A stretch of 37,179 nucleotides of DNA from a virus: the IMG/VR virus record IMGVR_UViG_3300025122_000065, positions 1 through 37,179 of that record; one strand, 5' to 3'. Below the pieces are notes generated by a model. It did no database searches. It saw only the letters and a program-made list of their open reading frames with translations, and had not been told where the DNA came from. Below are positions 3,943 to 32,200 of this stretch, one piece after another; positions within the stretch are counted from its first letter, which is position 1, and each line of letters starts with the position of its first letter. A program made the translations under genes and the position numbers.

Positions 3943-3962
3943 TGTTTAATTCCTAATTTACG

Positions 3963-12911: not shown

Positions 12912-12962
12912 TTATTTCTTCCTGGTAGTTCGTACCGTTCTTCTGCGTCGCGATTGAATCAT
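12912..12962 (-). CDS. Possible 16-aa arginine-rich small ORF bridging two virion genes
   Basis: The ATG at 12962-12960 overlaps the stop of the 4165-aa gene in the classic ATGA arrangement. The frame MIQSRRRRTVRTTRKK ends in TAA three bases before the ATG of the 343-aa gene. A GGGA lies 5 bases before the ATG. Eight of the sixteen residues are Arg or Lys. The ORF fills the gap almost exactly and carries the next gene's ribosome binding site. It may be a bridge that hands ribosomes on, a real basic peptide, or chance. A -1 slip near the giant gene's stop would append these residues to its C-terminus. Confidence 0.35.
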   Translation of the reverse strand: MIQSRRRRTVRTTRKK

Positions 12963-15900
12963 ATTGATCCCGAACTCATAACGATATAGGCATTCGCCGT
13001 GGGTAAGGCCGCGGCCGGTACCTCCTCGGGGGCTGGAATAAACTCTCTTAAATCAGGTACTACGGGTATCGTATCGTCTCCTTCAGGAATAATATCTTCG
13101 GTAGCATACACCACATCTTCTCCAATCTTAATTAGCTCAACCAAAGAGAAATAATCATAAGGCCAATTATATGTATATAGAGAGTCTATGGCGGGGGAAA
13201 CGATGGGCAATCCGTCGACTAAATCCTTTTTAGTAAAGATATTATAATCGCCCTCTGCTCGGCGCTTCACCTTAAACACAAGCCACTGTAAGTCTTCTTC
13301 ATTATCCAAAAGATTATCTACTAATGCTCGAATTTTAATCTCTACTGAAGCTTTTTTGAATTGGTTCTCCGGGCCGTTGGATGTAGGTGGTAGATTTTGC
13401 CAAATATTTATTAAATCATCTTGATTTAGATCTAACGCAAATTCAAAAGCGTAAAATGCAACGGGGAGCACAGATTCATTTTGAAGAAAATCAAAAGTAG
13501 GGGGAAAGATGTATTTATTTAGCAAAGCCAACTGAGTTACATACTCATGAGAATTAGAGTCGATGTCAAAGAACCTTCTATCGTTATCTACAGTAAGGAA
13601 TGGAACACACACAATCGCTTCTTCAAGTCTCTTGGAATTAGCAAAGTCACCAAGACGTTTCTGATCAGTTTGAAATCCTACCACATCATTGAGCGACTTA
13701 AGCTGAATTGTGCCATAATTTGTAGAGTCAAAGGTCAAAGGGAGATCTTTAACATTTAGAAACACTCCCTCGCTTCCGGAAAGTTTGTTACCATATTGGT
13801 GCCACATTCCTCTTACCCGGAGTTCGTCGACGCCGGGGTAGCCGGCGTACGTGTGGTTGATAGGGTTCTTTCGAGCGCCGACGAGTGGATCGGCAGCTGG
13901 GACGCCGTAAAAATTCAAAATGGGAGTTTCAAATTTTGGCTGTATCAACCAACGAGCTTGTTGGGTATTTGTATCCGGCGGTACTATCAATAGTTTATCA
14001 AGTATGTTGATGCTCGATGTAATCTGGGGCTGAGTGACATGAGTACCTGGTTCATACCCCGGTGCCTCCGCATCGGGGGGCATAAGATCAATAGAGTCGA
14101 ATCCCCAACGATCTTTCATATCTTTTTTATGAAACTCGATAACTGCATTTCCTAGTATATCGTCAAGCTTAACTTGTCCCGTCCAAGGGGCTTTAAATAT
14201 TATATTTGCAACTGCAGAGCCGTACCAATGCGGCGGAAGCCAAGGATCATAGCAAGCTCCGTCCCATCTAAACTTGCCCCTCGTCGCGCTGGTGAAACTT
14301 CCAGTCTGCACAACCATCGGACCAAAAGCAGATGCTCTACTATACATTCCAAACGAGCCGCTAATGATGCCGGAACCGAGCGAAGAGGCGACGGCCTGCA
14401 GGTTAAAATCTTGGCCAACGGGTTCCACCAGTTCAACTTGTAGGCCGTAATAATGATTTTTTGTAACAGCTGCAAAATCTGCTTCCGGCTTTGAAACATA
14501 AGATTTTAATGGTGTTTGGAAAAAACTAACTGTCTCACATAAAAAGTTGTCAATTGCTAATTTATAGAGTGGACTTGTGGCAGGGCCCAAATACTGAAGG
14601 TAAGTCGGACTCCCATCGTGATTCATGCTAGCACTATAAACACCAGTATCATATATATAGGAGCTGCTTCCAAGTGCGGTGGTGGATAGATACGCTTCCG
14701 GATCTCGGATGGCCTCAAATGGTAAAGGCACACCATACATTGAAGTGGGCGTCCAGGCCTCGCCCTGGGATCCTGTAGCCTCTTTGCCCAAAATTCGAAG
14801 AGCTTCGACGCCGCCGTAGTTACTGGTGGAGCGATTGATAAACGACCAAGTGCCATCTAAATTTAACTCTGTAAGCAGTAGAGTGCCGTACGTGCCGCCG
14901 GCGAAGTCCGAGTGCCCGGATGCTGAGACCTCTACCGATCCGGGTTCGCCCTGGAAGTTTGCGCCCGAAGTATCAGACATCAACAATAAGCTACTACAGG
15001 CAACCCCTGTTTTAATCGTATTGAATAATATTCCCGGTGCTACTAAGGGTTCAAGAAGTATGCGACGAGCAAGATTGGGATAGGCCGCTGCAGTTGTATC
15101 CCCAATCTTGTTGTTGCTGCCCGTAAGATTTATGGGACCCAAAGATTGACTTAAGAGCGCAGCCAATTCAACCGTTCTTTCCGCTGGATAAAATCCTTTA
15201 TACGGCAAAAACTGCAAGATAGCATCACACGATAATTCAATAGAGTGCCTTCTAATAATATCCCCAACAGCATTTGCCCGATCTACCAGCGCATCGTCCA
15301 CCACTTTAAAATATTTCATAAAATCCGCGGTTGAATATGTCTTATAAAAATCCGCGGTTGAACTATCCGGGTATGCGGCGCCGGTTAGAGTGAAGATATT
15401 ATTTAAGGGCGCCAAGAAATCGCCGCCATGATCATTAATATATGAATCTATATGTTCGCTAATCCTAAACTCCGGGATAATTGTCATATCCTTACCCACC
15501 AGCCGAATCATTTCGGCATAATCTTCATAGGGTTTATAGGGGCTTAAACCAGACATTTCACCCGCGCTCCAGCTGTGGTGGCCAATTAGGACGTCGAAGG
15601 AACCCGGCCTGGGATTGGGCCAGTCCTCGGTGTAGCCGGTAGACTTGTTATAAACGTTCCCATTGTTCTTTGAGCGGCCAGCAAGGATCGGCATCACATA
15701 GGCTGCAGCTGGCGCTAAACTATCGGGACTTACCTGCGTTGGATCTATACTTGAGCTAAATCTACAATATAGATTTTGCAACTCTCCGGAACCGGAAATA
15801 TTGGGTCCACTAGTGACAGCATCAGTATAATATCTTCCACCTCCTGAACACGTTATCGGGATGGCTGAATACCCCTCTCCATCGTTTTTGCTAACCATAT

Positions 15901-18900
15901 CGAGTGGCCACACGCTAGCGGCACCCGAGGGGGACAGCGTTCCACCGGCCGAAGGGAGCCCAATCTGAACACCCTGCGAATTATTAAAAGGTGCTAGCGC
16001 CCTGTAGTATTTTACATCATTCCATATATTAGAAATATCATAATTGGGTCTTGTACGTGTTGAAGTTTGGTAAACATTTTGATTGCTGGGATAAACTCGT
16101 TGACCACACTTGATGAGCGCGCTGAGAGTTCCACTTATGGTAAAATCTGCCAACGAGGTAAACGCCGTTCCTTCATCAACAGGCGCGCGATCATGAAGGT
16201 TTAATTTTTGATTGAGGCCATTATGTGAGAAATAATCCAAATTATTCTGATAGCTTACATGGAGAGACATATTATTGGTATCGTCTGGAATTGGATTATT
16301 ATCTTCGAAAGTAAAAGAAACGGCTTTTGCATTTGAAGCAAGAGGTTGCTCTATATAATCTACAAATTCATTGGCGCTAAGACCATTTACCAAACCATTA
16401 TTCCCCTCGATTGCGGGGGGCGGCACGAGAGCGCTGATGATGTTCTCTTTTCTTAGCTGACGAGCCACGGGATGCTCGCCGGTACGAATCTGTTTCCATG
16501 TAGGATATCCATAAGGCCCATTCCGGCTATTAAGCAGAGCCGACAATGATCCTCTCTTATCATAATCTTCGGATACAAAAATCGCAGGGGGCAGTCCGGA
16601 TCCTGACTTCCATGAGAGAGTTGCTCCGTGCGTCGCCGCGAGTGGGACTGTTATAAGGGTACCCATGGTACTACCGCTTGCGGGGGCAGACGAGGAATAA
16701 AGATGAGAGCTTGTGAAATGATTCATAACATTCACGGTGCCTAATCCCGGTCGGACATCTCCATAGAATGGATCAAATCGATACCAGGCTACCTGATTTG
16801 CTGGCGCCAGGGCATTGGACATCCCCATATTAGATATAGTCGTGATTTGTTCCCCAGTGAACTCCGTGTTCCATATACCTACATCCGTTATTTCGCCCGT
16901 AAACGACGGCGTCTGGGCGGTCACAACGTTATATGGGTCGAAAGTGTGCATCGGGGACGCGATGCCCACGATGGCGCAGGACCCTTCGCCGGCTTGGGTA
17001 CCCACCCCGAGGCCCGCAAGGCCTAGGCCGCCGCCAGTACCACAGGAGGCTGTTATATTAACAGTGCCATTGAGGATCAAAGATCCCCCCGTAATGTCGT
17101 CTGCAGTCCAATCAGACCCGGGAATTCTATTTCCATCTACATAGACTTTCACTAAGCCGGAGGTCATTGCGTTAACGCCACCACCGTTGCCGCCGGCAAA
17201 GGTCATTGCTATATGATGCCATTTTTGGAGTTCTATATACTGGGCACTCGAGCGACAGTTTAAGGTAGTGGTGGAGCCCGATATTACTACCTGGGGGCGT
17301 CCCTTCATATCGCCGGATACCAGCGCGTGAAGGCCGAATGAGCGGTGCTCAGCACCAAAAGTAAATATAGGAGATGATGGTCCGATGGGGGGCCCACCGG
17401 GGTCGAGGTCACCGGGGTCGGTATCTTGCAGATAAATCCATGCCGATAAAGTATATGGTTTCGCAGCGCTGCCGGCGCCGCCGATAAGAGAGTTCCAACA
17501 ATCTGGAGTTCCTATACTGAACCAATTGCCTCTATTATCAGCAGCCGGGTTTCCGCCGCGGCCGCTAAGGGAGCCCCAATGAGAGCGTCTAATGGCCCCA
17601 AATTCTCCAAGAGTATGAGTAGAGGAGGAAACATGATCTCTCACGTTCGTTAATAGGCCGGCATAATTGAGGTTCCCAAAATAGGGATCAGTACTGCCGG
17701 TACTTAACTCACTAAGAACAGCCGCGCTGAGAGCACTTGGCCTCTGGAGATCATATATGGCATAGCCATCTCTCAACGAAGACGTCACCCAAGAATATTG
17801 TTGAGTTGATCGTGGAATGGCATCCTGCACATACCAATTGTTAAATATTTTGGTTTTATATGTGGTCAAACCCCCAATAACATGATCATCCAGATAATAG
17901 CTACCACTATTGTATGTTGTCTCATCAATTTCGAAAGTTATATTTTGTGTGATAGGTAAATCAGTATGCTGGGCGGGGGGGATATTTGGGAGCAACCTTT
18001 GGTCGATCATTCCGCTTCCTAATTCAGGGTTAAACCGATACCATGCCCTCAAATTCGTGGGAGACAGGGACGAAACATCATATATATCTCCAGTATTATA
18101 GAGAGCTGTGACAGAAGCTGCATCTAGTGCCGTATTCCACACGGCCAGCTCAGCCATGGCCCCGTCATACGCGAGGTGTGACTGGACGCCACCGATGTTG
18201 AAGCCAAGGGCCGCACAGTCGAGGACATCGCCACCTGAATTGATTGTGCCGCTACCAGAAACACCATTAACATAAATGATGGGGGAGTCCGCGTCGGTCA
18301 GCCCGGCGCCGCCGGCGTAAGTCACCACCACATGGCTCCAAACACCAACTGTTAGAAGATTAGTTGCTTCTCGTTTCCACGTCGTGAGGCCGACCAGAGT
18401 AACAAGATCGCCGGACTGGAACCGGAGCGCTCTTCCGGTTCCGGCGCCGGCATCGCCAATCTGCCATATATACTCGGTGCTTGCCGGGGCGAGCGAATGA
18501 GGTTTTATCCAACACGCTACTGTAAAAGGCTGCGCACCGGCGCCGTCGCCGCCGAACAAGAGATTCCAATAATCGGTATCATCGGATTGAACATACGAAA
18601 GTGTGCCATCATTTGCTGCGAACATACCAACATAGTTATCAATCTCTTTTCTTACAGTCCTTGCATTTCGATTTACCTTATGATAAGAGGGCGTCGTAAC
18701 ATACGTTAATTCTGGTACCGATCCATAGGCAGCATCCGATCCAAAAGGACCACAATGGAGAGTGAAGCGCTGGTCGAGACCGCGGTTCTTACCCAGTTGA
18801 TCTTCAACTCGAATCGTTCCGGTAATTGAGGGGTCAATTGAGGCTGATCCCGATAATCCATAATCGATTATTGATAAGTTTCGATAAGGAAGAGCATTAT

Positions 18901-21900
18901 AAACCGACATTTCTTCATGTGCGGGGTCCATGTACCCGAGTGACATAACCTCATAACCACACCCAGCGAAGCGATTAACAATAATGGTGTCGTTTGAAGT
19001 CGATCCGGTTCGTGCCGGAATGCTGTAATTAAGAACACCTCCTGAATTCGGTGTGCCTCCCGGTTGCGAATCCCACGGGAGACCATCAAAATCCACTCCG
19101 CCGCCGGATGCAGTTAACTCGGTAGCCGGGGAGATATCTGCGACGGACCAGGCCCCATCGCCCACGACGTCTGTGTTGGGGAGAAGGGGGAACGAGGTGG
19201 CCGCGTCGAGCGAGTACTGCGATCGATTATAAATACGTTGCGTTGATGTGTCAAAGGTGCCGACATGATCCGAGCCACTGGCGGCATATGGAGTTCGCCC
19301 AAAGGAATACCACGCATTCATCTGGTTAGCACTCCCCGATAGGTCTAACTCATTAAGGTCCCATGGGCCAGGTCGATAGCTACCAGAAAAATCATAGAGA
19401 GTATATATTTGGGCATCGCTAAGCTCATTCTTCCAGAAAGCAAAGTCTGACATATAACATCCACCAAATCCCTGATAACCTGAATAAGAAAAATTAGCTG
19501 GGTTCTCGTCGTACGCAATGTTAAAACCAATAGCCGCAAGCGGGTTTCCTTGGCCACTATAGGCGGCCATGGTTTCTGCCGCACCTATAGGCGTCTGTAT
19601 AAGAGTCATAGACTGGCTAATACCGTTTACGTAGAAAGTGGGAGCATTACTAGTGCTACTATCATCATAGGTGATGGCTACGTGAGTCCAGATATCCGAT
19701 GGAATATTTGAACCAATCGAGCGCCAGCATGCCTCATTCCCTGTAAACTTCTGACCAAATTCTATATCTCCATCGAACCTAAAACAGGCGCGCTTATATC
19801 CCGAGTCTCCAAAATAAAACCAAGTAGCCGCAGTATTGCCATTTGGGCGGCCAATGGGGCCCTTGTCTGGGAATGCGGCCGCGGCGTTGCCCAGCTTGAC
19901 CCACGCGGCCCATGTTTGAGTCTCCTCTAGAGCTGTTATAAAGTCTGCATGATACACTGGAAAATAAAGAGCGCCGGACGGCTTGCCCTCGGTCTGCTCG
20001 ACGTAGAGGGAGGAAGTCTGATAATATGGCGCGGGTCCCAACGCGTCCCCGGGCATTAATGGAAATCTGCCGCGCGTTGCGAGTGTTTCCGGATATAAGG
20101 CAAAGTCAAATATCTGTTCCTTAAAGAAGGGATCATTCTTCCTTCTGCCGCCGCTTGAAACAACTTGATAATTTTTTTGATAGTTTCCAATCGCTGCATG
20201 AGCCATGATTCCAGATAACCTTGTCGTCACGCTAGCTGTAGTCATCAGAATATTTTGAAGGTTCACGGGGCGCTTAGCACCGACGTTTCGGAAGCGATTT
20301 GCTATCGGGATATTCACGTTGCCCGAGGTACTATTGGCATCATAGTTCGGAGGAACAACCGCCATAGAGGGCGAAGCAAATGTTCCGCCCCCCGACGAAG
20401 AAACACCTGAAAAAACCAGTTTCCATCCCTCGCCGCGCGAGTAGGCAGTGTCCAACGGGCGCCCACTTCCACTTTGATTAAGGGGTGTATGTCGATATTC
20501 TCGTCCGCCTACAAATGCTTCAGTAAAGGGCCCCTGCATAGGGAGGTCTGCATTGTGTACAAGATCGTGATGAAGATTTGTTATCATCACTCCGGTGGCA
20601 TAATTTTCCACTACCTCAGAGTTATATCCGGTAGTTACCGATGAAGAATATATACTGAATGGAAGTAACAAATTGCCATTACGAGCTAACGTCCCCTCAT
20701 TGTTTCGATTAATGCTGGGATTCATCCCAAATCCCAGGCGTTGCTTATAGGCGGGGTGATATATATCGGCAGTGTTCATTAGTTGTTCGACTTCCGACCC
20801 GGAGCCTACGATTACATTCACGGGGGCGTTAGTAGGTGCCGCGGCCGCGGGACCGAAAGGCCGGGTTGCTTCATAAACAAAATTAATATTCTTATTTTGA
20901 TTAAACCCTACTCCACCAAGGATAAATCGACCACTACCACCAAACTTATAAGGACTTACAAGGGAACGACGATCAAACTGCCTATTAGAATTAAGCACAA
21001 GCTGTTTGCTGGTGTTGGTACCAGCTAGGGATTGAGATAGCCGGAGATTATACCTTTCGGCTCTGGCTTGCCACCACACAGAATTTATATCTAATGGAGG
21101 AGGAGCATAGGGATATCCAAAAGGAGGAGACACAGAAACAATATCGCTGCTGTCAAACAAATAGGGGGTTCCATTTCGGCCGCCTTTCTGGTCGTAGATT
21201 GTTCCATCATATGTGTCATCGGGATCAGAACCCATCATCCACCATGAAAGAAGATTGTCACTAACAGGCCCTAAAGAAGTTAATTCTTTCCTTGTGCCCC
21301 CTGAATAAACCTGAGCAACCTCGCCTAGATCAAGCTCCTTATCCCATACAGCAACATCACACATATAAGCGTTCGTGTTAAATTGGTTGGTAGAGCCGCC
21401 TATTGTTAAGCCCGTAGTTCCGGCTGAAGCTATTGTTTCGGGAGCAGTTGTAACTGTACTGGCGCCGTCCTTTAGTTCTCCATTTATGTAAATGTGGGAT
21501 TTGCCGTTGATTGCGCCCTCGAATGTAGCAACAATGTGAGTCCATTCCCCAGTAGCGATTGTGTCGCTACTTACTCTAGTATTATTGCTGAGCGCGGAGG
21601 TCTGGTTAAAAGAAACATAGGCAGGGTAAGAAGATCCATCAAACTTCAGTACTCGATCGCGAGTGCCGAGATTTACTATAATAGGGTCTGTATCTCCCAT
21701 AGCGATCGGATTAATCCATAACGAAATGCTATAGGGAAGATAAGCTCCAACAAGTGCTTCCCACACCGCTGCGTTATTACCGGCTCCAGCAAGTTGGGGT
21801 GCGTTCACGTAATCATTGATACCATCAAACTGTAGCGATTTATCATCGGGAGCTACCGTCGATGTCGCGGCATGCATATACTTCCATTGAAAGAAATCGA

Positions 21901-24900
21901 TTGGCTGCGATGATCCAACTTGGCGACGGCTTGTAGCACTGGCAGGATAAAACCCAGTTCCCGTAGGTTCATCTTCGGGGCTGGCGTTGTCGAGAGTCAG
22001 GGTGACGCCGACGGCGGGACCTTGAATAATAGGATCTTGTTGCTTAACGTTTTGAAATTTGCTCTGGTATTTACTTCGTTCGAGTACGTGGCTTTCAATG
22101 ATGGTTCGAACACTCTCAGCAAAGTCTGCAGATGCCGGCACCAATTGCTGCAACATTGAAGTAAGCGAAGAATCAAACCATTTATAAAACTCGTAGAACT
22201 TCTCGAAATCAATTTCACTATTGCTGACCCTTTCAAAGAAGCGCTGGCGGAGGACTCTTAAGCCCTTGTACTCCGGGCGATATCGGTTAACGGGCTCGCC
22301 AATAAGATTATTGATATCTTGTAACGTGGCGAAATAATTAATCATTTCAGCCGAGACTGCTTGTGCCATGCTCTTTTCAAAAGCAAAGAAATAGTTAATC
22401 GGTCGAGAATCTCGCGTGAAAACGTTTTGTTCTTGAGCGCCCAAAACTGTAACCATATCGCTAGAGTGAACATTTTCAGGTAACTGCAGTTTAGAAGTTA
22501 CCACATAATCTTTGTCGATCGGAGTAGTAGAAGAAGTCGTAAAGAATTGGCCGCGGCCACTATATTGTTTTTCTAAAATAGGACCGAGCCAAGCCCAGCG
22601 GGTTGAAGCAAGTGTCGCTGAACCCGAATATTCATCAACTACCGTAAAGAGCCCTGACGAATCAGATCCAGTATTTTGAGCGAACTCCCAATTAAATAAA
22701 AGTGTATCTGCCTGAAGAATCTCACCGTAGGATGCCGAAGGCACAAATGGGAAGGCATACCGATGGGGGTTAAGGGAGCCGTAATTTTGAGTATCATATA
22801 TGTGACCACGCAATGTTTTATCATCTAAATAATCTAACCAATATCGGCACGCGTTAACCTTTACATCCGATGACTGGAGAACATCTCCGGTAAAATCGGT
22901 GCGGTGTGCCCCCACAAAGACTCTCTTGCTGCCGGTTACAATCCCCGCCGAAACACTAGAAGAAATCATACTGCCGCTAAGAGTAAACTCATTTCTAATG
23001 ACGCCGGCGTCAACTTGAATACCATGGAGCTCAATTGTATAGACTCCATTGTCAGTACCGTCCACCTGATAAGCCTGTGGATATTTTTCTGGCTTAATCC
23101 GAACTGCCAAATTCCAATGAGTATTATTGTAGGTATCTTGATACAAATCAGAAACTAACTCGGGAACCAAGGTATCGTCGGTGCCGGTGAGAACGAAACG
23201 AACATTGTCCGAGGTTATCTCATCTCTTACAGCATAAACTTGATAATTTACATTATCAGGACTTGGCCACGTGGTAGTAGATTCAGGAGAGGCAGTAGGT
23301 ACTCCATGAACACCAAATAACGAGCTACTTATGGCATTTGTATCAATGTAATACTCTGAGGCGGGATCAAGTTTTTTGGGAAACAAAATTTCTGCTTCCA
23401 ACGTTTGAGCATAGCCTCCTGTCAAATTATAATTTGCAGGGATATATCCTGTGGTATTGGTTGTGTCTGTGGGATCTTGATATTGATATACTGTTGCGTG
23501 ATGGCCATCTTCTGTATTAAAGTCTACCTGGCGTTCGATGACTTCGACGATTCGACGGTTGTTGCGTAACTCATATTGAATGCCATTTCCATACATATTA
23601 AGCTTAACAAGCTCGTCGTCAATACCAAAACAGCGAATTAAATTTCGGAACGATTTTTCTGTACCCTTGGTCTTATAGATGTATACCAGATTATTATAAA
23701 TGTTTTTGTAGATAGTATTTTTGATCTCGCTTAAAGATTTTTCAAACACGCGGTCTTCACTTCGATCCGCCAGCTTTTCCAACACATCTGCATCCAAAAA
23801 TAAATCTGGGGCCACCATCCCGACCGACGGGAGGAGGCGCTCAGCAAACGGCAACGCCTTTTGGCTTCCGGAGGGATACGTGATATTCCCGAGGCCGGAG
23901 ATCGACTGGATTTGAAGATGTAGGGTATCAAAATAGCTAGATAAAATCTGTGTCAGATACTTAACTTGCTTTTGGCCTTCGGCATCTTCCTCGGTGATCC
24001 ATGCAGGAATGGAATTATAAATCGAAGAGTTGTTCGTAACATCATAGCTAGAGCCAGAAGTTTCCAAACTTGTAGCAAGGCCTTCCACCAAAGGGTGAAA
24101 AGAATAAATAATTGGATCTTTAAATTCTTTAATTGCAGCACTTGATTCTACAATTGCAGACCCCGTTGATCTAGAATTAGAGGTATATCCTGTCCACGTA
24201 CCATTAGTAATCCGCCCGGAATAATCAAGTACAACAGAATCTGTAGCCGAGAATCCGGTAATTCCTTCATTAAATTTATAGTAAACGCCCAAATATGTAT
24301 TAACATCTTCAGTGGTATCAACAAATGGCGCCGGATCATCGTTTGTGCCGCCACCTACTTGTGTGAACCAGAACCTTCCAATATCGCGGCCGGAACGCTC
24401 CTTCTTCCAATACCTAAGCTCGTCTAACGAACCGGTTAACTTACCTGCATAAGCTGCCGCTGACGATGCGGATGGGGAAGTTATAAGAGCGCCGATATTG
24501 GCTCGCAACGCCCCCGTAATTTCATTCAGGCCCACAGAACCTAGCGTATTTAGCGTAGCCTTGTTACTTAGTGTACCATCGACATAAAAATTGGAGGTGA
24601 TACCAGTCGAAGAAGACAAAAAGGTGAAAGCATAATGATGCCAATCGCCGTCCGCGATCGAAGCGGTTGTAAAAGACGAGCCCACCACAGAATCTTCAAA
24701 AGCACCTGATACAAACTGAGTACTACCCGACTGAAGTGTGACCAAGAAGGGGTCGGCGCCAAGGGCCGAAGCACCATTAAGCAACAAAGTAAAACGCCCG
24801 TATAGGGGGCTGTCATAAGTCTCCCCATTCCAAAGATCAAAAATAACCTCTTTTTCGGTTTTAGCGAGGTCAAAAGCTTCCTTCTTTAACCAGAATTCCA

Positions 24901-25456
24901 CTGAAACGCCGCTCCCACTTGGATCCAGCTTTAGGTTGGTTTCCCGATTACGATCGGGCTCGTAATAATTTGAACCTGTAAAGTGAGTAGCGTAAGGAGT
25001 CATCCCATTAGGATTGACATGCGGACCACCCTCAAGATAAATGTATTCTGGGGTTGTAGGGAGTCCATAACCATTTGTTATAGAACCATTTAAGGTACCC
25101 CAACCATCAGCAGAAAATTTTATGTAGCCGTTCGTGCGTGGATACTGATTCTCATAAATATGAAGATCTAAATAAGTTGACTCATTTTCCCACTTGAGCC
25201 TTTCTTGGAGCGAGCCGTCATAGGGATACTCATCATAAATATGCTTTAATGATTGATCATAATATTCAGCGGCTGAACCATAGCGGGCAAAGTTACGCGG
25301 AAACGAAAAATCCACTTGTGGGATAAATCGCTCTTCTTTTACAATATCCTCAGTCTGATATCCAACTGACTCAACCTCAGATGCTATTTCTTGGGCCGAC
25401 TTGTTGGATAATGCTTGGATTGTTGTCGCTTTACTAAAATAATCCTTATGACTCAT
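12959..25456 (-). CDS. Giant virion protein with five LamG/concanavalin-A-like domains
   Basis: This 4165-aa uninterrupted ORF is the largest gene in the window. Five LamG-type jelly-roll domains are recognisable at about residues 175-370, 1203-1386, 1840-2022, 2290-2455 and 2652-2875. Each carries the W-x-H-(I/V/Y) strand plus a YVDG/YVNG/YING turn, and each is followed by a (W/Y)-(Y/W)-x-(F/M) motif such as LRAWYRFNP or QVAWYRFDP. LamG folds typically bind glycans, so receptor or capsule binding at the baseplate periphery is a good hypothesis. Around residues 589-612, YKTKGTEKSFRNLIRCFGI recalls the 'KGT' segment of P2 gpI/T4 gp7-type wedge proteins, in keeping with its place after gp25 and gp6. 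The remainder is unassigned. The start follows the 513-aa gene's stop by 7 bases; the only AGGA is 1 base before the ATG, an unusually poor spacing. Confidence 0.82.
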   Translation of the reverse strand: MSHKDYFSKATTIQALSNKSAQEIASEVESVGYQTEDIVKEERFIPQVDFSFPRNFARYGSAAEYYDQSLKHIYDEYPYDGSLQERLKWENESTYLDLHIYENQYPRTNGYIKFSADGWGTLNGSITNGYGLPTTPEYIYLEGGPHVNPNGMTPYATHFTGSNYYEPDRNRETNLKLDPSGSGVSVEFWLKKEAFDLAKTEKEVIFDLWNGETYDSPLYGRFTLLLNGASALGADPFLVTLQSGSTQFVSGAFEDSVVGSSFTTASIADGDWHHYAFTFLSSSTGITSNFYVDGTLSNKATLNTLGSVGLNEITGALRANIGALITSPSASSAAAYAGKLTGSLDELRYWKKERSGRDIGRFWFTQVGGGTNDDPAPFVDTTEDVNTYLGVYYKFNEGITGFSATDSVVLDYSGRITNGTWTGYTSNSRSTGSAIVESSAAIKEFKDPIIYSFHPLVEGLATSLETSGSSYDVTNNSSIYNSIPAWITEEDAEGQKQVKYLTQILSSYFDTLHLQIQSISGLGNITYPSGSQKALPFAERLLPSVGMVAPDLFLDADVLEKLADRSEDRVFEKSLSEIKNTIYKNIYNNLVYIYKTKGTEKSFRNLIRCFGIDDELVKLNMYGNGIQYELRNNRRIVEVIERQVDFNTEDGHHATVYQYQDPTDTTNTTGYIPANYNLTGGYAQTLEAEILFPKKLDPASEYYIDTNAISSSLFGVHGVPTASPESTTTWPSPDNVNYQVYAVRDEITSDNVRFVLTGTDDTLVPELVSDLYQDTYNNTHWNLAVRIKPEKYPQAYQVDGTDNGVYTIELHGIQVDAGVIRNEFTLSGSMISSSVSAGIVTGSKRVFVGAHRTDFTGDVLQSSDVKVNACRYWLDYLDDKTLRGHIYDTQNYGSLNPHRYAFPFVPSASYGEILQADTLLFNWEFAQNTGSDSSGLFTVVDEYSGSATLASTRWAWLGPILEKQYSGRGQFFTTSSTTPIDKDYVVTSKLQLPENVHSSDMVTVLGAQEQNVFTRDSRPINYFFAFEKSMAQAVSAEMINYFATLQDINNLIGEPVNRYRPEYKGLRVLRQRFFERVSNSEIDFEKFYEFYKWFDSSLTSMLQQLVPASADFAESVRTIIESHVLERSKYQSKFQNVKQQDPIIQGPAVGVTLTLDNASPEDEPTGTGFYPASATSRRQVGSSQPIDFFQWKYMHAATSTVAPDDKSLQFDGINDYVNAPQLAGAGNNAAVWEALVGAYLPYSISLWINPIAMGDTDPIIVNLGTRDRVLKFDGSSYPAYVSFNQTSALSNNTRVSSDTIATGEWTHIVATFEGAINGKSHIYINGELKDGASTVTTAPETIASAGTTGLTIGGSTNQFNTNAYMCDVAVWDKELDLGEVAQVYSGGTRKELTSLGPVSDNLLSWWMMGSDPDDTYDGTIYDQKGGRNGTPYLFDSSDIVSVSPPFGYPYAPPPLDINSVWWQARAERYNLRLSQSLAGTNTSKQLVLNSNRQFDRRSLVSPYKFGGSGRFILGGVGFNQNKNINFVYEATRPFGPAAAAPTNAPVNVIVGSGSEVEQLMNTADIYHPAYKQRLGFGMNPSINRNNEGTLARNGNLLLPFSIYSSSVTTGYNSEVVENYATGVMITNLHHDLVHNADLPMQGPFTEAFVGGREYRHTPLNQSGSGRPLDTAYSRGEGWKLVFSGVSSSGGGTFASPSMAVVPPNYDANSTSGNVNIPIANRFRNVGAKRPVNLQNILMTTASVTTRLSGIMAHAAIGNYQKNYQVVSSGGRRKNDPFFKEQIFDFALYPETLATRGRFPLMPGDALGPAPYYQTSSLYVEQTEGKPSGALYFPVYHADFITALEETQTWAAWVKLGNAAAAFPDKGPIGRPNGNTAATWFYFGDSGYKRACFRFDGDIEFGQKFTGNEACWRSIGSNIPSDIWTHVAITYDDSSTSNAPTFYVNGISQSMTLIQTPIGAAETMAAYSGQGNPLAAIGFNIAYDENPANFSYSGYQGFGGCYMSDFAFWKNELSDAQIYTLYDFSGSYRPGPWDLNELDLSGSANQMNAWYSFGRTPYAASGSDHVGTFDTSTQRIYNRSQYSLDAATSFPLLPNTDVVGDGAWSVADISPATELTASGGGVDFDGLPWDSQPGGTPNSGGVLNYSIPARTGSTSNDTIIVNRFAGCGYEVMSLGYMDPAHEEMSVYNALPYRNLSIIDYGLSGSASIDPSITGTIRVEDQLGKNRGLDQRFTLHCGPFGSDAAYGSVPELTYVTTPSYHKVNRNARTVRKEIDNYVGMFAANDGTLSYVQSDDTDYWNLLFGGDGAGAQPFTVACWIKPHSLAPASTEYIWQIGDAGAGTGRALRFQSGDLVTLVGLTTWKREATNLLTVGVWSHVVVTYAGGAGLTDADSPIIYVNGVSGSGTINSGGDVLDCAALGFNIGGVQSHLAYDGAMAELAVWNTALDAASVTALYNTGDIYDVSSLSPTNLRAWYRFNPELGSGMIDQRLLPNIPPAQHTDLPITQNITFEIDETTYNSGSYYLDDHVIGGLTTYKTKIFNNWYVQDAIPRSTQQYSWVTSSLRDGYAIYDLQRPSALSAAVLSELSTGSTDPYFGNLNYAGLLTNVRDHVSSSTHTLGEFGAIRRSHWGSLSGRGGNPAADNRGNWFSIGTPDCWNSLIGGAGSAAKPYTLSAWIYLQDTDPGDLDPGGPPIGPSSPIFTFGAEHRSFGLHALVSGDMKGRPQVVISGSTTTLNCRSSAQYIELQKWHHIAMTFAGGNGGGVNAMTSGLVKVYVDGNRIPGSDWTADDITGGSLILNGTVNITASCGTGGGLGLAGLGVGTQAGEGSCAIVGIASPMHTFDPYNVVTAQTPSFTGEITDVGIWNTEFTGEQITTISNMGMSNALAPANQVAWYRFDPFYGDVRPGLGTVNVMNHFTSSHLYSSSAPASGSTMGTLITVPLAATHGATLSWKSGSGLPPAIFVSEDYDKRGSLSALLNSRNGPYGYPTWKQIRTGEHPVARQLRKENIISALVPPPAIEGNNGLVNGLSANEFVDYIEQPLASNAKAVSFTFEDNNPIPDDTNNMSLHVSYQNNLDYFSHNGLNQKLNLHDRAPVDEGTAFTSLADFTISGTLSALIKCGQRVYPSNQNVYQTSTRTRPNYDISNIWNDVKYYRALAPFNNSQGVQIGLPSAGGTLSPSGAASVWPLDMVSKNDGEGYSAIPITCSGGGRYYTDAVTSGPNISGSGELQNLYCRFSSSIDPTQVSPDSLAPAAAYVMPILAGRSKNNGNVYNKSTGYTEDWPNPRPGSFDVLIGHHSWSAGEMSGLSPYKPYEDYAEMIRLVGKDMTIIPEFRISEHIDSYINDHGGDFLAPLNNIFTLTGAAYPDSSTADFYKTYSTADFMKYFKVVDDALVDRANAVGDIIRRHSIELSCDAILQFLPYKGFYPAERTVELAALLSQSLGPINLTGSNNKIGDTTAAAYPNLARRILLEPLVAPGILFNTIKTGVACSSLLLMSDTSGANFQGEPGSVEVSASGHSDFAGGTYGTLLLTELNLDGTWSFINRSTSNYGGVEALRILGKEATGSQGEAWTPTSMYGVPLPFEAIRDPEAYLSTTALGSSSYIYDTGVYSASMNHDGSPTYLQYLGPATSPLYKLAIDNFLCETVSFFQTPLKSYVSKPEADFAAVTKNHYYGLQVELVEPVGQDFNLQAVASSLGSGIISGSFGMYSRASAFGPMVVQTGSFTSATRGKFRWDGACYDPWLPPHWYGSAVANIIFKAPWTGQVKLDDILGNAVIEFHKKDMKDRWGFDSIDLMPPDAEAPGYEPGTHVTQPQITSSINILDKLLIVPPDTNTQQARWLIQPKFETPILNFYGVPAADPLVGARKNPINHTYAGYPGVDELRVRGMWHQYGNKLSGSEGVFLNVKDLPLTFDSTNYGTIQLKSLNDVVGFQTDQKRLGDFANSKRLEEAIVCVPFLTVDNDRRFFDIDSNSHEYVTQLALLNKYIFPPTFDFLQNESVLPVAFYAFEFALDLNQDDLINIWQNLPPTSNGPENQFKKASVEIKIRALVDNLLDNEEDLQWLVFKVKRRAEGDYNIFTKKDLVDGLPIVSPAIDSLYTYNWPYDYFSLVELIKIGEDVVYATEDIIPEGDDTIPVVPDLREFIPAPEEVPAAALPTANAYIVMSSGSI

Positions 25457-25463
25457 ATCCTAA

Positions 25464-27005
25464 TTATTCTTCAACTCTAAATTTAAACGATTGAGGTTGC
25501 TCCTGCCAGTCTCCTATACTATCATTATAGTAAGACAATTTTATATTATACATGTATCCGGGTTCTAATAGAGACATATCCAAATCGAAATAATTTCCTC
25601 CTTTATCGTATGATAAGAAAGTACTATAGTTGGCGCCAGTTCCATACGGGATAGCCATATAATTATCGGTAACGCGGACTACCGCGTATGAAGCGCTTAC
25701 AATAATATCCGTAGGATTATTAGCTGTTGAAATTGTATACAAAGTAGGATTCCAGTTCCTATTGCGGACAAAAAATCTAAATCTAGGTTTATCGTTGGAT
25801 ATGTATGATTTTTTAAGATTTTTACACGATGTAACTCTGGTGAAAGTGGGAGCAGAATCATAAGTAGGAATGAGTTCCGGGTAGATGGAACCAGTAAAAT
25901 ACTCAACTGCGCCGCTGTGCCACACATCATGAATGGCGAGAAGAGGAGTGGCCGCGGCTGTCACAGGGACGGAAACCGAATAAAGGCCAGCACTTACATA
26001 GCTACCCGTAGCATTTAGATCAGTATCGGCAGCCACTCCGCCACCGCCGGCTAACAAAAGTTTTGACCCTGTTGGGGTGCCGCTAGCGGAGCTGGAATAA
26101 AAGGATACCAAAATATCATTGGTACCGACCGCAGGAATATTAACCAGACGCCCGCGAACATAATTGTATAGGTAAAGAGTATTTAAATTATCTGCGGCGG
26201 GAGCGACCGAACTAGAATAAAAGAAGTCTTCTCTGTTGTCACTAACACGGGAGTCCCAGCGGGCCTCTATATAGGGACGTTTAAAGAAGTATTCGGTCGA
26301 GCGCGCAAAGAATTTTTTTGTATAGTAAGACTGAGTAGAGCCGTCAGTATTATTAATAGCCCATGGCGCGGCCGTTGAATCTTGAGCAGTAGAACTAGAA
26401 AAATAAGCCTCCTGGCTGGCTGTTAAGTGAACACCCACCCCATAGTTATTGGCAAAGGCAGCATCAGTTCCGGCGACCCACTCCTCTACTAAATGACTAA
26501 TATTTAGTTCGAGATCCTCATAGCCTAATGGAAATGAAACATTGTAATTAGAACCGGTACGATAATCTCCTCCTATCGAAGTCCAGGCCGCGGTTGAACT
26601 AGCCGAGAGCCAATTCGCATACCCCAAATCTTGATACTCTTCCATATCAAGGCCCGTGCCCTCAGTCCAAGATTGAGATACAGGCGCCACCACCAAATTG
26701 AATCCTTGAGGCAACGTAAATGGATGTTTTGCATTAAACATTCTTAGATAGAACGAAACACTTCCAGAAGCCGGCAATGTTCCCGCAGTCCGGTCAGCGG
26801 AGATTTGGGATATAGGAAACTGAATCAAAGTGCGCGAAAGTTCTTGAGTCAAGCCCACAGAAGCACTAGCCTGTGCATAAATAGAAAAGATTTCTAGTGA
26901 GTCGGCATATCCCATATTTGAGCCGGTGCCCTGCGTAGAAAGGCCGCCTTCAAAAGCATTAGTAATCGTGGTATCTGCGCTAGCAGTATATCTTGCAATT
27001 GACAT
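25464..27005 (-). CDS. Beta-rich virion protein, DNRLRE-like N-terminal region
   Basis: This 513-aa protein's first 190 residues follow the pattern of DNRLRE-type carbohydrate-binding modules: ASADTTITNAF at the start, RTLIQFPIS in the middle, then a VSQSWTEGT strand and ISHLVEEWVAG. Such modules are found in secreted and surface proteins. The second half has the segment RPYIEARWDSRVSDNRED and ends with a probable beta-sandwich (LLEPGYMYNIKLSYY, then SFKFRVEE). The ATG shares one base with the gp6-like gene's stop (TAATG at 27007-27003), and the ribosome binding site is weak, so translation is probably coupled. Its place between the wedge protein and the LamG giant suggests a baseplate-periphery or fibre-attachment protein. 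The domain match is by eye only. Confidence 0.65.
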   Translation of the reverse strand: MSIARYTASADTTITNAFEGGLSTQGTGSNMGYADSLEIFSIYAQASASVGLTQELSRTLIQFPISQISADRTAGTLPASGSVSFYLRMFNAKHPFTLPQGFNLVVAPVSQSWTEGTGLDMEEYQDLGYANWLSASSTAAWTSIGGDYRTGSNYNVSFPLGYEDLELNISHLVEEWVAGTDAAFANNYGVGVHLTASQEAYFSSSTAQDSTAAPWAINNTDGSTQSYYTKKFFARSTEYFFKRPYIEARWDSRVSDNREDFFYSSSVAPAADNLNTLYLYNYVRGRLVNIPAVGTNDILVSFYSSSASGTPTGSKLLLAGGGGVAADTDLNATGSYVSAGLYSVSVPVTAAATPLLAIHDVWHSGAVEYFTGSIYPELIPTYDSAPTFTRVTSCKNLKKSYISNDKPRFRFFVRNRNWNPTLYTISTANNPTDIIVSASYAVVRVTDNYMAIPYGTGANYSTFLSYDKGGNYFDLDMSLLEPGYMYNIKLSYYNDSIGDWQEQPQSFKFRVEE

Positions 27006-28801
27006 TATTTAACTGATCCCTGAATATCAGTATTAGGGAATTTAAGTTCAAATATTGTTGTTTCGGCCGCGTTAACTATTCTACCATCGGCGGACGTCCT
27101 AGATTTAAAATCATAATTGCTTTCTGAATAAACGCCCCCCTGCTTGGCGACAATTTCTACATCATAGACGTCTAAGACGCCCTTTACTTTTAGTAATTCA
27201 CGGTAAACATCCGTAATCATAAGGGGCTCACCTATATCAAATTGATTTGTATTATAAAATTTAGACAGCCTATTGCTGGCTCTATTAATAACAGTATAAC
27301 GATTTGCATTTGACTCTATAGTAACCTGATATTGTATTCCAAAGTTAACAATTTCTGCATCTAAAATATCAATCGTATCATTAATCATTTTATATTGCTG
27401 TAACCAATTCGCTACATTATTTTTTAAGGTCGAATTCGCAGTCGCCAATCGGCCACTCGTATTGGTGGATATAACATACAAATTTAAATTTCTTTTAAAT
27501 TCATCAAAATCGCGCACAATACGCGCGCGGTGGATTGCTCCAAACTTTGCAGGCATTCCATATACAACCGACTGATAGTCTTGAGCCGTGACGGCGCGAT
27601 TTTGGGTCGCAAAATAACTCTTCACTCGCTGTTTTATTTCTACTGCAGAAGGAAGATTAATATTCCCCACAAAGGGTTCATCATTAGTTACTTCCAATGA
27701 AGCAACCACACTTGACTGTGTTGCATCAACTAAGCTTCCTTGTGAATCAAATCTAAATTTCGGTGCCGAAACTGTAATAATCGTATCAACAGCAGCATTT
27801 ACATCTCGCGAAGTGTTGTATCTGTAAACAATGCGAAGCGTTGTACTGGCCGGCGCAATACCAAACTTATCCGTACTAATAAGTTTAGTGGGATCAAAAT
27901 CTAGATCTGTTATATAATTTCTTCCGTTCAAATCAAGCATCAAAGTAGTGGGATCCAGCACCGAATTATTTAACAACTCGGAGTCGGATCCATAGCCAAA
28001 CTGAAGATATGAGTTTGCACCATCCTGTTCTAAGACGAAGCGCCTGGCGACCGGAACAGCTTTCAATATATTAGGAACCGTAGAGCTGTTCGAATCGGAG
28101 TTTGGAACGGCCTTGTAAATAACATTTTGAGACAGATTATCAACTTGTACATATTCGTGGCCTTCAGTATCGACAACGCTTATCACATTTGTAATATTCG
28201 AATTAGCGAGGGGAACCTGTAGAAATCGCTGAAAGCCACCAATTCCAACTTCTTGGACAGTTGCTTGGCCAGAAACCGCGCGGCCCTGCGCGCGAATAAT
28301 ATAGGAAGTGGCCTCACCCGTATTCGAGTTTGCCTCACCGGCAACCACTTGATTAGTGGATACACCAAACTTTACATCCTGAATCAGAGTATAAGCGCCT
28401 CCGCCGCCCGAATTAAAGACCGAGCCGGCCTCTAAAGTGGGAGCGTATAGTAAATCAGGGCCTCCCCCGACCGCAGATGCTGGGACCCGAATATAAAACG
28501 TCAACATTCCAAACGAAGCAGGGCTAGCCGGAAGGCGGAAGCCAAACTGACGCGCGTGGCGAACAACATTACCATATTGAACCGCCGAATCTAAAAAGCT
28601 TTCATTTGCCTGAAAATCAACATAAAAAGAGAGAATGTCTCCCACATATGCAACTGTATCCAGCATTAATGCACCAAAAGATGCTTCACTAAAATCTTGA
28701 TAGGTATTGGGATAATACCGGCGAGCGTAGTTTTCTAAGTCTCTTCGAATTGAATCGAAGTCGCGACTTGTATAATTAATGGCTTGTAGTTTCTTGGGCA
28801 T
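27005..28801 (-). CDS. Baseplate wedge protein, T4 gp6 / P2 J (Baseplate_J) family
   Basis: This 598-aa protein belongs to the conserved wedge component that forms the iris-like ring of contractile baseplates. The N-terminus has INYTSRDFDSIRRDL and ASFGALMLDTVAYVGDILSFY, continuing to ANESFLDSA (residues 8-72), which is typical of gp6-like proteins. At about residues 386-415, the segment VKSYFATQNRAVTAQDYQSVV is the hallmark of the Baseplate_J family. The length agrees with T4 gp6 (660 aa). It lies directly downstream of the gp25-like gene, the same W-J order as in phage P2 and in type VI secretion clusters. Only a weak GGA precedes the ATG. Confidence 0.9.
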   Translation of the reverse strand: MPKKLQAINYTSRDFDSIRRDLENYARRYYPNTYQDFSEASFGALMLDTVAYVGDILSFYVDFQANESFLDSAVQYGNVVRHARQFGFRLPASPASFGMLTFYIRVPASAVGGGPDLLYAPTLEAGSVFNSGGGGAYTLIQDVKFGVSTNQVVAGEANSNTGEATSYIIRAQGRAVSGQATVQEVGIGGFQRFLQVPLANSNITNVISVVDTEGHEYVQVDNLSQNVIYKAVPNSDSNSSTVPNILKAVPVARRFVLEQDGANSYLQFGYGSDSELLNNSVLDPTTLMLDLNGRNYITDLDFDPTKLISTDKFGIAPASTTLRIVYRYNTSRDVNAAVDTIITVSAPKFRFDSQGSLVDATQSSVVASLEVTNDEPFVGNINLPSAVEIKQRVKSYFATQNRAVTAQDYQSVVYGMPAKFGAIHRARIVRDFDEFKRNLNLYVISTNTSGRLATANSTLKNNVANWLQQYKMINDTIDILDAEIVNFGIQYQVTIESNANRYTVINRASNRLSKFYNTNQFDIGEPLMITDVYRELLKVKGVLDVYDVEIVAKQGGVYSESNYDFKSRTSADGRIVNAAETTIFELKFPNTDIQGSVK

Positions 28802-28819: not shown

Positions 28820-29212
28820 TTAGTTATCAAATTCAATTCGAAGCGTAGTACTTCTTTGTAAAGGAACAATTGTAAACTCTATAGTGATTGATAAAGAATG
28901 AGGAAAGAGTTCGGGGCTGTTCTCAGGAGTACCAAAATCAATTTTATTAATCTGGACAAAACTCATATATTGTCGTGTTTGTTCTACAATTTTTTGGTTT
29001 ATGTCGGCATAGGTCGACCCATCGTTCAATTCAAATAAATAGTGTTTTAATCCAACTCCATAATCAGGATTCATCATACGTTCGCCGGGGTTCGTCAACA
29101 TCAACATTTTAAAATTTTGTCTAACTAATTCAACATGACTTTGAATGAGACGATATGGCCCATCGATGCTGCCTACGGTAAGTGGTAATTTTGGTGCTAG
29201 TCCTGAAGCCAT
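28820..29212 (-). CDS. Baseplate wedge protein, T4 gp25 / P2 W family
   Basis: This 130-aa protein has the length and core motif of the gp25/TssE-like family. The segment LTNPGERMMNPDYGVGL (residues 39-55) contains the conserved G-E-R followed by P-x-(F/Y)-G, the site that helps join the wedge to the sheath-initiating ring. The C-terminus (LSITIEFTIVPLQRSTTLRIEF) is the usual terminal beta-hairpin. In contractile injection machines this protein nucleates sheath polymerisation around the hub. The start is supported by AGGA (29225-29222) with a 9-base spacer. Its neighbour is the gp6-like gene, which strengthens the call. Confidence 0.9.
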   Translation of the reverse strand: MASGLAPKLPLTVGSIDGPYRLIQSHVELVRQNFKMLMLTNPGERMMNPDYGVGLKHYLFELNDGSTYADINQKIVEQTRQYMSFVQINKIDFGTPENSPELFPHSLSITIEFTIVPLQRSTTLRIEFDN

Positions 29213-29263: not shown

Positions 29264-32200
29264 TTATTCCTCCTCGGCCTCAGCGGCCGCTTCGAGTTCC
29301 TCGGTGCTGGGCTCCTCAGAGCCTGCGGCGATCCGAGCGGCTCTCGCCTCCTCCTCGGTCGGAGGTTCACAATCACTCAGGGGGACGCCCTCAGACAGAT
29401 TAGACATTGGTGCTCCATCTTCGTCTCCAGGCGCGCCAAGGAACTGCTCATCAAGAGCGCTCTTCAGAAGCATGAACAAGAGATAGACAAGTCCAAATGG
29501 GCCCGGAGGCATCATTAAGATGCCCAAGAATGTTCCGGTAAAATCAACTCCTTCAAGCGTGATGCGCGGGAACAGATTGTCTTTAATTGCGTCGGGAACA
29601 TTATTGCGCGGGTCTCGCGGATCAGATTGACCCAATTTATATAATAACTCTCCCGTATTCTGCATTACGGTGGCGCCATTTTCATCGACGAAAAAATTGC
29701 CAGGGGGCGGGGGCGCTAGCGGGCCCAAAATTGTCGTAAACGCTTTCGAATCCAACGCGATAGGTTGTGGCCAGCCGCCCGACGGCGGCGGTGGCCCATT
29801 GTTAACATCCCACAATATATTGCCCTGTGAAGCCCCTTGCATGGCTACGTCCAGGGCACAAAATAAAAGATTCATCACATCCGACCCTTGCAACCCTGGA
29901 TTTAGGCCGCTTCTTGGTATAGGCCCGAGCTCAGCGTCGGTTGGACCCCCTTGGTCTTCGGACTTAAACCCCTTAATCGCACGGGCGGGAGGAGCCTTAA
30001 GGCCCGTATCTATCCCTTGGGCCAGAATCATAAACACGAATCGGCTGAGATCTTTAATTATTTTAGAAATGCCGACGTGAGGATCAAGCATTTCACAAAC
30101 ACCACGAAGAATCGAAATAGGAGTTTCGATCAACATTTTATTAATAAAGTCTAGCGCGGAGAGGTTCTGGCGCTCTTGAAGCAGATCTCCGGGTGTTGGC
30201 GGCGCTGTAGGTAGAGGAGGCCCTGTTGCAACCATTTCAGCTATCACGTCCTCTTGATTTAATACGGTATCAATAAAAGTTTGTATGCAGCGACCTTTAG
30301 CGCCCATAAACAAGGTATCCATCTTAGGAAAATACCCACTTGTTAAGTAGAAATTATATAGGACGGGGATCAATACGGTCATTTCGCGACTAAATGTTTT
30401 TCCGAAATAGTCAGAAAACACTGAGTCTGCCGCAATCAGTAATAACTCACTATTAAAAACTGTTTCACCATAAGCCTCCAATTGTTTCTGAAGTATAGGG
30501 ATCTCCCGTATTTCATATCTAAGAGGAATCTCCCCGGGAACCAGACTACGATGGCTAATTACTTCAGCCGTGCTAGCCGAGTTACCGAGAGTCAGGGATG
30601 CCCCAAGTCGAGCTAATACTATTCTATTTAAAGTAATATTCTCATTAATAGCCAGACTAATTGTTTTATGAAGAGGCAGAGTGTCATAAAATAAACCATT
30701 AGTTACATCGTCGTCTGCGCCTTGAATGGGCAAATAATATACAATATTATATCGCATTTGCAAATTTTCAAAAGTAAGGTCGGGGGTTGTGCTAACATCG
30801 GCGATTGTATGAGAATTATTAAATAAAATTTGCATAAACAAATCAAGTTCTAAACCATAGTCCGCTCCGGTTGTGCGTCTTAATATGGTGGGCACTGTCT
30901 GGCCAGTAGGGGCAACTACATTATCCCACACCACCTGTCGTTCCAAAACCAATCTACCATATTCTAATGTGGCGGCGCCCTGTTCATCGGTTTCGATTTT
31001 GGCGGCAACTGAATCTAAGAGAGGTCGTACTGATGTGCCAGTTAAGGGCCCGTACGCGCCGAGCGTATTATCGTTGTGAGTTACGTATATCTTACGCTGT
31101 GGCGCCGAGGGAGTCGTATTCCCGGCAATGCGGCCCCCAAAGAAGCTTGGCTGCACAGTCAAGATATTATCTACAAAGGCCCGAGTGAATTTTTTAGGCT
31201 CGACTTTATTGGAAGATCGTCTCACAGCATTGGCTACGGGGCGCTTAGATTTAAAAATTCTTTCTCTTACCATATATTCTACGATGGCCGGGAAATCCCG
31301 ATGCTCGAGAGGTGCGCCGGTGCCGCGGTAGTCGAGGGTGACGACTTCTCCATCCATATCTAGCAAGCCTCCGGCGGCCTGAACCGGGGCTCTTTTTAGT
31401 TTCTTGTTAAAATAACCTACCATATATTCTACTACGACAGGGCGGCCCTGTACAAATTTTATAACTTGATCTCTAATGGAGGTGGCCATAAATTGTTCAA
31501 CAAGAGGGGACGCCATGATATCGTCTATTTCAAAGGCTGCAAAAACAAATATATTTTTAATAATAAACTGGGCTATATGTATTTGGATCAATAGCAAAAA
31601 TAATGCATATCGAATAACGTCTCGAATTTTAAGTCCTTTGGGATTTGTGCTGTCAGCCGGGTTCGGGTCATAACACATAGCATTTATCATTTCTTCATTA
31701 ATATCACCTAATATGCCGGAAGGAGGAGGACCAGGGCTTCCTAAATCTAATAAATCAGCAATCTCTTCCGGCAAACACCGCGTATTATCGTGAAAGAAAT
31801 TTAAAGAATCAAGTTTTTCGGTGGTAAAAATGCCGTTCGCCTGAATATAATTAAAAGACGCTTCTACCAAGCCTGCATATGCTGATGGGAATAATACTGT
31901 ATCGACCTCTCTTTCGACTTTTTTATGCAAGTCAGACCAAGTAGGAGAGGCAACGTTGTGGCCATCTAATATTATTTTGCCGATAAGGTTATCAGTAAAC
32001 AGAGATGCATAAGGATTTGTATCGCGAGAAGATTCATTATAACTGGAAGGAGGCGTATCAACGGAAAAACTCAGGGCTTCGGCGCTATCGGGAACAAGCG
32101 CAGAATTAAGTTGGATATCAATATACCGCCCATTTGTCTCCACACTAGAATTTGAAGGATACTTAATCTGAAGCCGGTCGACTTTAGTAGATGGAATGTC

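Follow-up and report, generated by a model that had tools for sequence, protein, structure and literature searches.

A 4165-residue candidate baseplate wedge protein with LamG cassettes inserted in a backbone conserved among uncultured, apparently T4-like phages

The window analysed here was the whole IMG/VR record IMGVR_UViG_3300025122_000065 of 37,179 bases, in which one open reading frame (ORF) of 4165 amino acids (aa), hereafter the giant, was open from ATG to stop at 12959-25456 on the minus strand. It carried five LamG domains, four of them lying between blocks of a backbone that was conserved in uncultured relatives, and it was encoded downstream of the baseplate wedge genes gp25 and gp6. 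On balance and with moderate confidence, the giant was interpreted as a baseplate wedge protein in the position of T4 gp7, formed by a conserved backbone with inserted LamG adhesin cassettes.

A sequence-only reading of this DNA had proposed a single uninterrupted 4165-residue frame, without giving its strand, and five LamG domains in the one chain, and both proposals were confirmed. The Pfam search returned exactly five PF13385 matches in the whole record, every one of them inside the giant (aa 184-359, 1241-1381, 1845-1968, 2307-2449 and 2665-2788), and all five exceeded the curated cut-off of 27.6 bits, with scores of 30-71 bits and a best E of 2.7e-21. As a whole protein the giant matched PF13385 over five stretches with E 1.5e-54, and a LamG model trained on the family widened the spans to those listed below. 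The W-x-H strands were DWHH, EWTH, IWTH, VWSH and KWHH, and the turns were YVDG, YING, YVNG, YVNG and YVDG; all the motifs noticed earlier were present, but the first letter of the strand was more varied than the proposed (E/D/I)W-x-H, with V and K also found. The giant agreed with the Laminin_G_3 (PF13385)/pentraxin fold in five domains above the cut-off and in the predicted structure of LamG1 (Z ~19), and LamG2-5 were assigned to the LamG class by hidden Markov model alone. Recent tandem duplication was rejected as the source of the LamGs, because they were about 26-29% identical to one another and scored higher against the LamGs of other phages.

12959-25456, minus strand: the giant ORF, 4165 aa, with its stop codon at 12959-12961
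24320-24973, minus strand: LamG1, aa 162-379, PF13385, pentraxin/LamG fold, in every relative covering the region
21269-21790, minus strand: LamG2, aa 1223-1396, PF13385, insert between backbone blocks 1 and 2
19355-19948, minus strand: LamG3, aa 1837-2034, PF13385, insert between backbone blocks 2 and 3
18062-18595, minus strand: LamG4, aa 2288-2465, PF13385, insert between backbone blocks 3 and 4
16796-17521, minus strand: LamG5, aa 2646-2887, PF13385, insert between backbone blocks 3 and 4

With the N-terminal 1199 aa as query, at least 197 related stretches were found in IMG/VR, and 80 with 38-71% identity were kept. Mapping of the giant onto these relatives revealed conserved blocks at about aa 1-1142, 1456-1780, 2140-2270 and 2971-4120, and LamG2-5 occupied the gaps separating them. 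LamG1 was found in all relatives whose sequence covered its region.

22031-25456, minus strand: N-module, aa 1-1142, the best-conserved backbone block, 38-71% identity to relatives
20117-21091, minus strand: backbone block 2, aa 1456-1780, from the mapping onto relatives
18647-19039, minus strand: backbone block 3, aa 2140-2270, from the mapping onto relatives
12962-16561, minus strand: C-module, aa 2966-4165, conserved, a gene of its own in some relatives, AlphaFold2 predicted template modelling score (pTM) 0.76

The length of the giant was not an accident of assembly, because intact homologues of 2.8-4.7 thousand aa with collinear blocks occurred on dozens of contigs that came independently from different metagenomes. 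Although the ORFs of some relatives were split and that of L026 was broken at aa ~560, these intact versions ruled out an artefactual giant ORF and left an assembly error, or several genes fused by chance, with a negligible probability. No match to the giant was obtained in the PHROGs search, and none to the N- and C-modules in 50,697 cultured-phage records (tblastn). The earlier statement that some 3000 residues match no known domain held for Pfam and PHROGs, but most of these residues belonged to conserved blocks common to the relatives, and part of them was assigned by predicted structure to a concanavalin A (ConA)-like sandwich.

The total number of LamGs per relative varied from one to six, and extras of the LamG2-5 type from 0 to at least 5, with most relatives lacking them. 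The N-module tree contained 41 complete proteins, of which 26 had one LamG, 11 two, 1 three, 2 four and 1, the window protein, five; the count of four in L037 was inflated, its match at 822-917 being the cryptic sandwich described below. L048 with six LamGs and L076 with five were not on this tree, which was built without LamG1 and on which at least 6 changes between one and several LamGs were needed. Two pairs of relatives were natural experiments for the clean gain or loss of one whole LamG block. L012 and L013 were collinear at 76-83% identity except for a 250-aa LamG-bearing stretch in L012, where L013 ran on uninterrupted (residues 1193 and 1191). L035 and L040, with N-module DNA 94.6% identical, differed in a 276-aa LamG block at residues 1272-1549 of L035. 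The idea of the five-LamG chain as an adsorption device stood as multivalent carriage of lectin-like domains at the level of fold, but LamG1 alone was universal and the other four were optional inserts. An extra LamG nested in LamG1, splitting the LamG1 sequence, was observed in L017, L048 and L076 (aa ~210-520 of the giant).

The giant was the last member of the window order gp25, gp6, protein X and giant, which was also found in most relatives, and nearly all large ORFs of the window lay on the minus strand.

28820-29212, minus strand: gp25 baseplate wedge/sheath initiator, PF04965, phrog_261
27005-28801, minus strand: gp6-type baseplate wedge protein, phrog_219 with E 2.6e-22, 30% identity to cultured phages
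25464-27005, minus strand: protein X, 513 aa, between gp6 and the giant, with longer LamG-bearing versions in other phages

The proposed baseplate-proximal placement gained support from this order together with the homology of the core of the N-module to cultured-phage proteins of the same locus. Two parts of the core were concerned.

23537-24151, minus strand: KGT helical domain, aa 436-640, homologous to the immuto, Mel-JY01 and LR756508 proteins, with a motif like that of T4 gp7/P2 gpI
22031-22489, minus strand: end of the N-module, aa 990-1142 ('VLERSKYQSKF'), homologous to the immuto family

By profile comparison, the core (aa 454-625 and 990-1142) was judged homologous to the 1265-1400 aa proteins of immuto, Mel-JY01 and LR756508. 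Against the immuto family, hhalign gave a probability of 98.4-98.9 with E 5e-15 to 2e-17 for aa 454-625 and a probability of 96.3 for aa 1000-1142; the core profile matched the immuto, LR756508 and Mel-JY01 proteins with E 1e-32 to 7e-23, their rows being already in the profile. The gene order in the cultured phages was gp25, gp6, two short genes and the homologue of 1265-1336 aa. The giant shared the core and nearly the same gene order with immuto35A_161 (1265 aa, Flavobacterium phage immuto) and WWT39511 (1336 aa, Microcystis phage Mel-JY01), but these proteins have one third of its length and contain no more than one LamG-like sandwich (Mel-JY01 aa 661-811, independent E (i-E) 3e-4). No match was found between the C-module and the immuto family by hhalign, Pfam gave nothing convincing on the immuto core, and the core profile gave only chance matches to PDB sequences, such as IcmE repeats.

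The group of the giant was classed as uncultured T4-like myoviruses because 10 of the 12 long relatives carried a Gp23-type major capsid gene, recognised by sequence (E 6e-59 to 7e-72); the window contig is too short to show gp23. The virus of the window was probably marine. A 4-kb contig of a Flavobacteriales metagenome-assembled genome (L284) contained an N-module 36% identical to that of the giant, a weak host hint which agreed with the Flavobacterium phage homologue and was insufficient to assign a host.

Based on gene order, the giant was placed in the gp7 position, near the place of T4 gene 7. It probably works like gp7 and was not filed as a proven gp7. The gp7/gpI family is a wedge scaffold which also holds peripheral receptor-binding parts (PMC10457771). 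The giant was similar to T4 gp7, P2 gpI/Tail_P2_I and XM1 gp17 in the gp25/gp6 locus and in a helical motif of the KGT type at the equivalent place, and its motif 'IYKTKGTEKSFRNLIRCFG' resembled 'FYSTKGIEASYKFLFKVLYNE' of T4 gp7, 'FYSAKGTSFSIAYLFKLLYGE' of Syn19 and 'HCHKGTIGAIRRVVEPLG' of P2 gpI. Differently, it was 4165 aa long, compared with 1032 aa for T4 gp7, 242 for XM1 gp17 and 176 for P2 gpI, and it had five LamGs, a probable sixth ConA-like sandwich and an extra gene after gp6. Over 19 genomes, PF09684 matched P2 gpI and otherwise only the KGT site in the homologue from LR756508 (E 0.024). With the gp7 profile, the giant ranked first among the window ORFs, at the motif (aa 585-610, i-E 0.35); among the relatives, L065 (0.003) and L082 (0.021) were matched and others failed. 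The forward KGT profile did not single out gp7 or gpI in T4, Syn19 and P2.

A giant LamG-bearing protein in the gp7 position was already a known kind, because VrlC and Syn19 provide the precedent. In pelagi- and cyanomyophages, T4 gp7 was reported absent and 'appears to be substituted' by VrlC, and concanavalin A domains were reported in the same structural operon (PMC7029224). A literature search for baseplates with LamG domains in marine phages returned no paper. In cyanophage Syn19 (L090 14655-34106), gp6 and gp9 flanked a 6483-aa ORF that had a KGT motif of the gp7 type at aa 702. From its position this protein, Syn19_088, is presumably VrlC, and the LamG model matched it at aa 4193-4323 (i-E 3e-18) and aa 2265-2393 (1e-6). 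It is unlikely that the giant is a diverged VrlC-type protein, as present at this locus in cyanophages and pelagimyophages. The shared locus after gp25 and gp6, the huge ORF, the N-terminal KGT-type motif, the two or more LamG-model matches and the reported substitution of gp7 would all fit such an origin, but the backbones were unlike, the order and lengths of the blocks differed, and the nearest proteins were those of immuto and Mel-JY01, not the cyanophage ones. Neither the N-module nor the C-module gave a significant match to Syn19_088 (best E 0.1; hhalign 0.2%, with the motif in register). Syn19 keeps gp8 and gp9, whereas the group of the giant lacked both at Pfam sensitivity. The apparent absence of a separate gp7 from this group was read from family models by which T4 gp7 itself goes undetected. 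What is added here to the precedent is the unrelated-looking backbone, the cassette behaviour, the split forms and the connection with shorter cultured-phage homologues.

The sequence-only reading had also suggested that one chain may do the work which T4 divides among gp7, gp10, gp11 and gp12. Neither the window nor seven relatives of 130-186 kb gave a match above the cut-off to Pfam models of gp8, gp9/10 and gp11, with one sub-threshold gp11 match (G004, E 0.003); the same models did find T4, and gp8 and gp9 were also found in Syn19. These negatives agreed weakly with a replaced T4 periphery and did not identify the giant as the replacer, and 6-8 other structural-looking genes after the giant could serve instead.

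The structure of the modules was predicted by AlphaFold2. The N-module model (47 sequences) had a mean predicted local distance difference test (pLDDT) of 73 and a pTM of 0.48. In this model, aa 109-443, which contain LamG1, were predicted to have the pentraxin/LamG fold (Z 19.3, root-mean-square deviation (rmsd) 3.1 over 216 residues versus PAPP-A), and matches at Z ~19 included PAPP-A, pentraxins and a Bacteroides carbohydrate-binding protein; the jelly-roll fold expected earlier was thereby recovered for LamG1. Tandem LG pairs of laminin and neurexin aligned over aa 109-985 (~341-344 residues, rmsd 26-31), the high rmsd being attributed to a differing orientation of the two domains, and this alignment suggested a second, cryptic ConA-like sandwich.

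22502-23539, minus strand: cryptic beta sandwich, aa ~640-985, ConA/LG-like from structure only

A sequence profile did not support the cryptic sandwich as a LamG in the window protein (hhalign 0.6%), and LamG-model matches occurred at its position in L015/L037 and Mel-JY01. The C-module model (35 sequences) had a pLDDT of 68 and a pTM of 0.76; its structure search against PDB gave no match (best Foldseek E 0.33 and best Z 5.7, both below the meaningful level), and BFVD returned uncharacterised viral proteins only, one of them labelled uncultured marine virus. The gp7 chain was not among the listed PDB matches of the N- and C-module models, which does not exclude gp7.

In the mechanism proposed for the giant as a wedge protein, the N-module, with LamG1 and the cryptic sandwich, would dock on the gp25/gp6 wedge ring through the helical KGT domain, and the middle region would display a lineage-specific number of extra LamGs on the exterior of the baseplate. 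The C-module may be another large structural unit, one that some relatives encode in a gene of its own. Weak contacts of the LamGs with glycans, several per chain and multiplied by six wedges, would make the baseplate adsorb avidly to the host envelope. Host binding could be retuned, with the scaffold untouched, when entire cassettes are gained or lost or diverge.

Several points weigh against this interpretation. The location of the giant in the virion and its binding of glycans are indirect deductions; a structural role of LamG2-5 is conceivable, and drift, instead of selection by receptors, could account for their pairwise identity of ~26%. The kinship with gp7/gpI was at the level of the motif: PF09684 (Tail_P2_I) did not match the giant at E <= 10, although it missed T4 gp7 too, and the N-module matched the T4 gp7 profile non-significantly (hhalign ~1-3% probability). 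One gene, X, separates gp6 from the giant. In addition, the N-module model was middling, and its KGT linker had a pLDDT below 50.

Other baseplates have beta domains that are not receptor-binding, and the LamGs might likewise be architectural, stiffening or oligomerising an enlarged baseplate rim and leaving host binding to other proteins encoded downstream. This explanation was regarded as somewhat unlikely. It would accommodate the presence of LamG1 in every relative at about the conservation of parts of its flanks (mean pairwise identity 38%, compared with 37-66% for the other parts of the N-module), the location of the cryptic sandwich within the core and the 6-8 genes without assignment after the giant. 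However, LamG2-5 were dispensable and were gained or lost as whole domains between similar proteins, a behaviour more usual for adhesins than for load-bearing parts, and LamG inserts were also present in neighbour X. By sequence, LamG cassettes also appear to enter this gene, and its homologues in ~10 relatives were 730-870 aa long with a LamG insert. Protein X itself looked by eye like a DNRLRE-type beta protein and had no Pfam match.

A broader form of the adhesin reading was held tentatively as a possibility. The wedge protein itself may be an adhesin platform in a large uncultured T4-like group, with an invariant scaffold and fixed slots in which whole LamGs are gained, lost or exchanged, so that host range would evolve by cassettes in one chain and not by the swapping of fibres.

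Several relatives encoded the giant as two ORFs, with the break after the N-module or further along, and at least 11 such two-part relatives were counted among the loci compared. The junctions were mostly stop/start overlaps or short gaps, several of them with GGAGG-like sites, and on the tree a minimum of 7 changes between split and single genes was required. The N- and C-modules therefore need not be one chain. A functional unit of two chains produced by post-translational cleavage would be in line with the separate ORFs and the repeated changes, but most relatives kept the single frame and the position of the join differed among relatives, and cleavage was considered quite improbable.

The present analysis connects giant proteins of an abundant uncultured family with a defined site in the contractile baseplate, and it provides a testable rule of variation, in which the backbone blocks are kept and LamGs are gained or lost in the slots between them. 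Such block-wise gain and loss among related viruses suggested a modular change of the grip on the host. If the LamGs bind host glycans, the part that sets host binding would be revealed by sequence alone. The C-module is a conserved unit of ~1200 residues whose model is confident in part and matched no solved structure, and it is a good structure target.

Downstream of the giant, proteins of 343, 999, 828, 461, 331, 360 and 441 aa without assignment were followed by a RuvC-like resolvase and a primase, and the 343-aa neighbour as query found no match in the cultured-phage tblastn. Upstream of gp25, a 2060-aa ORF (29264-35446, minus strand) had no Pfam or PHROGs match. Two adjacent structural-looking proteins (1478-2803 and 2860-3942, minus strand) had similar C-terminal ends, xxAKPSxPxRK...FTxxIxLDx versus xxAKLSEPLRKDPSTEFTLRVRLDY, and are perhaps paralogues. 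An ORF at 36531-37178 (minus strand), which lay upstream of the tail operon and was open at the contig end, resembled tyrosine/dual-specificity phosphatases with the HC-x5-R signature (HCVAGTDR).

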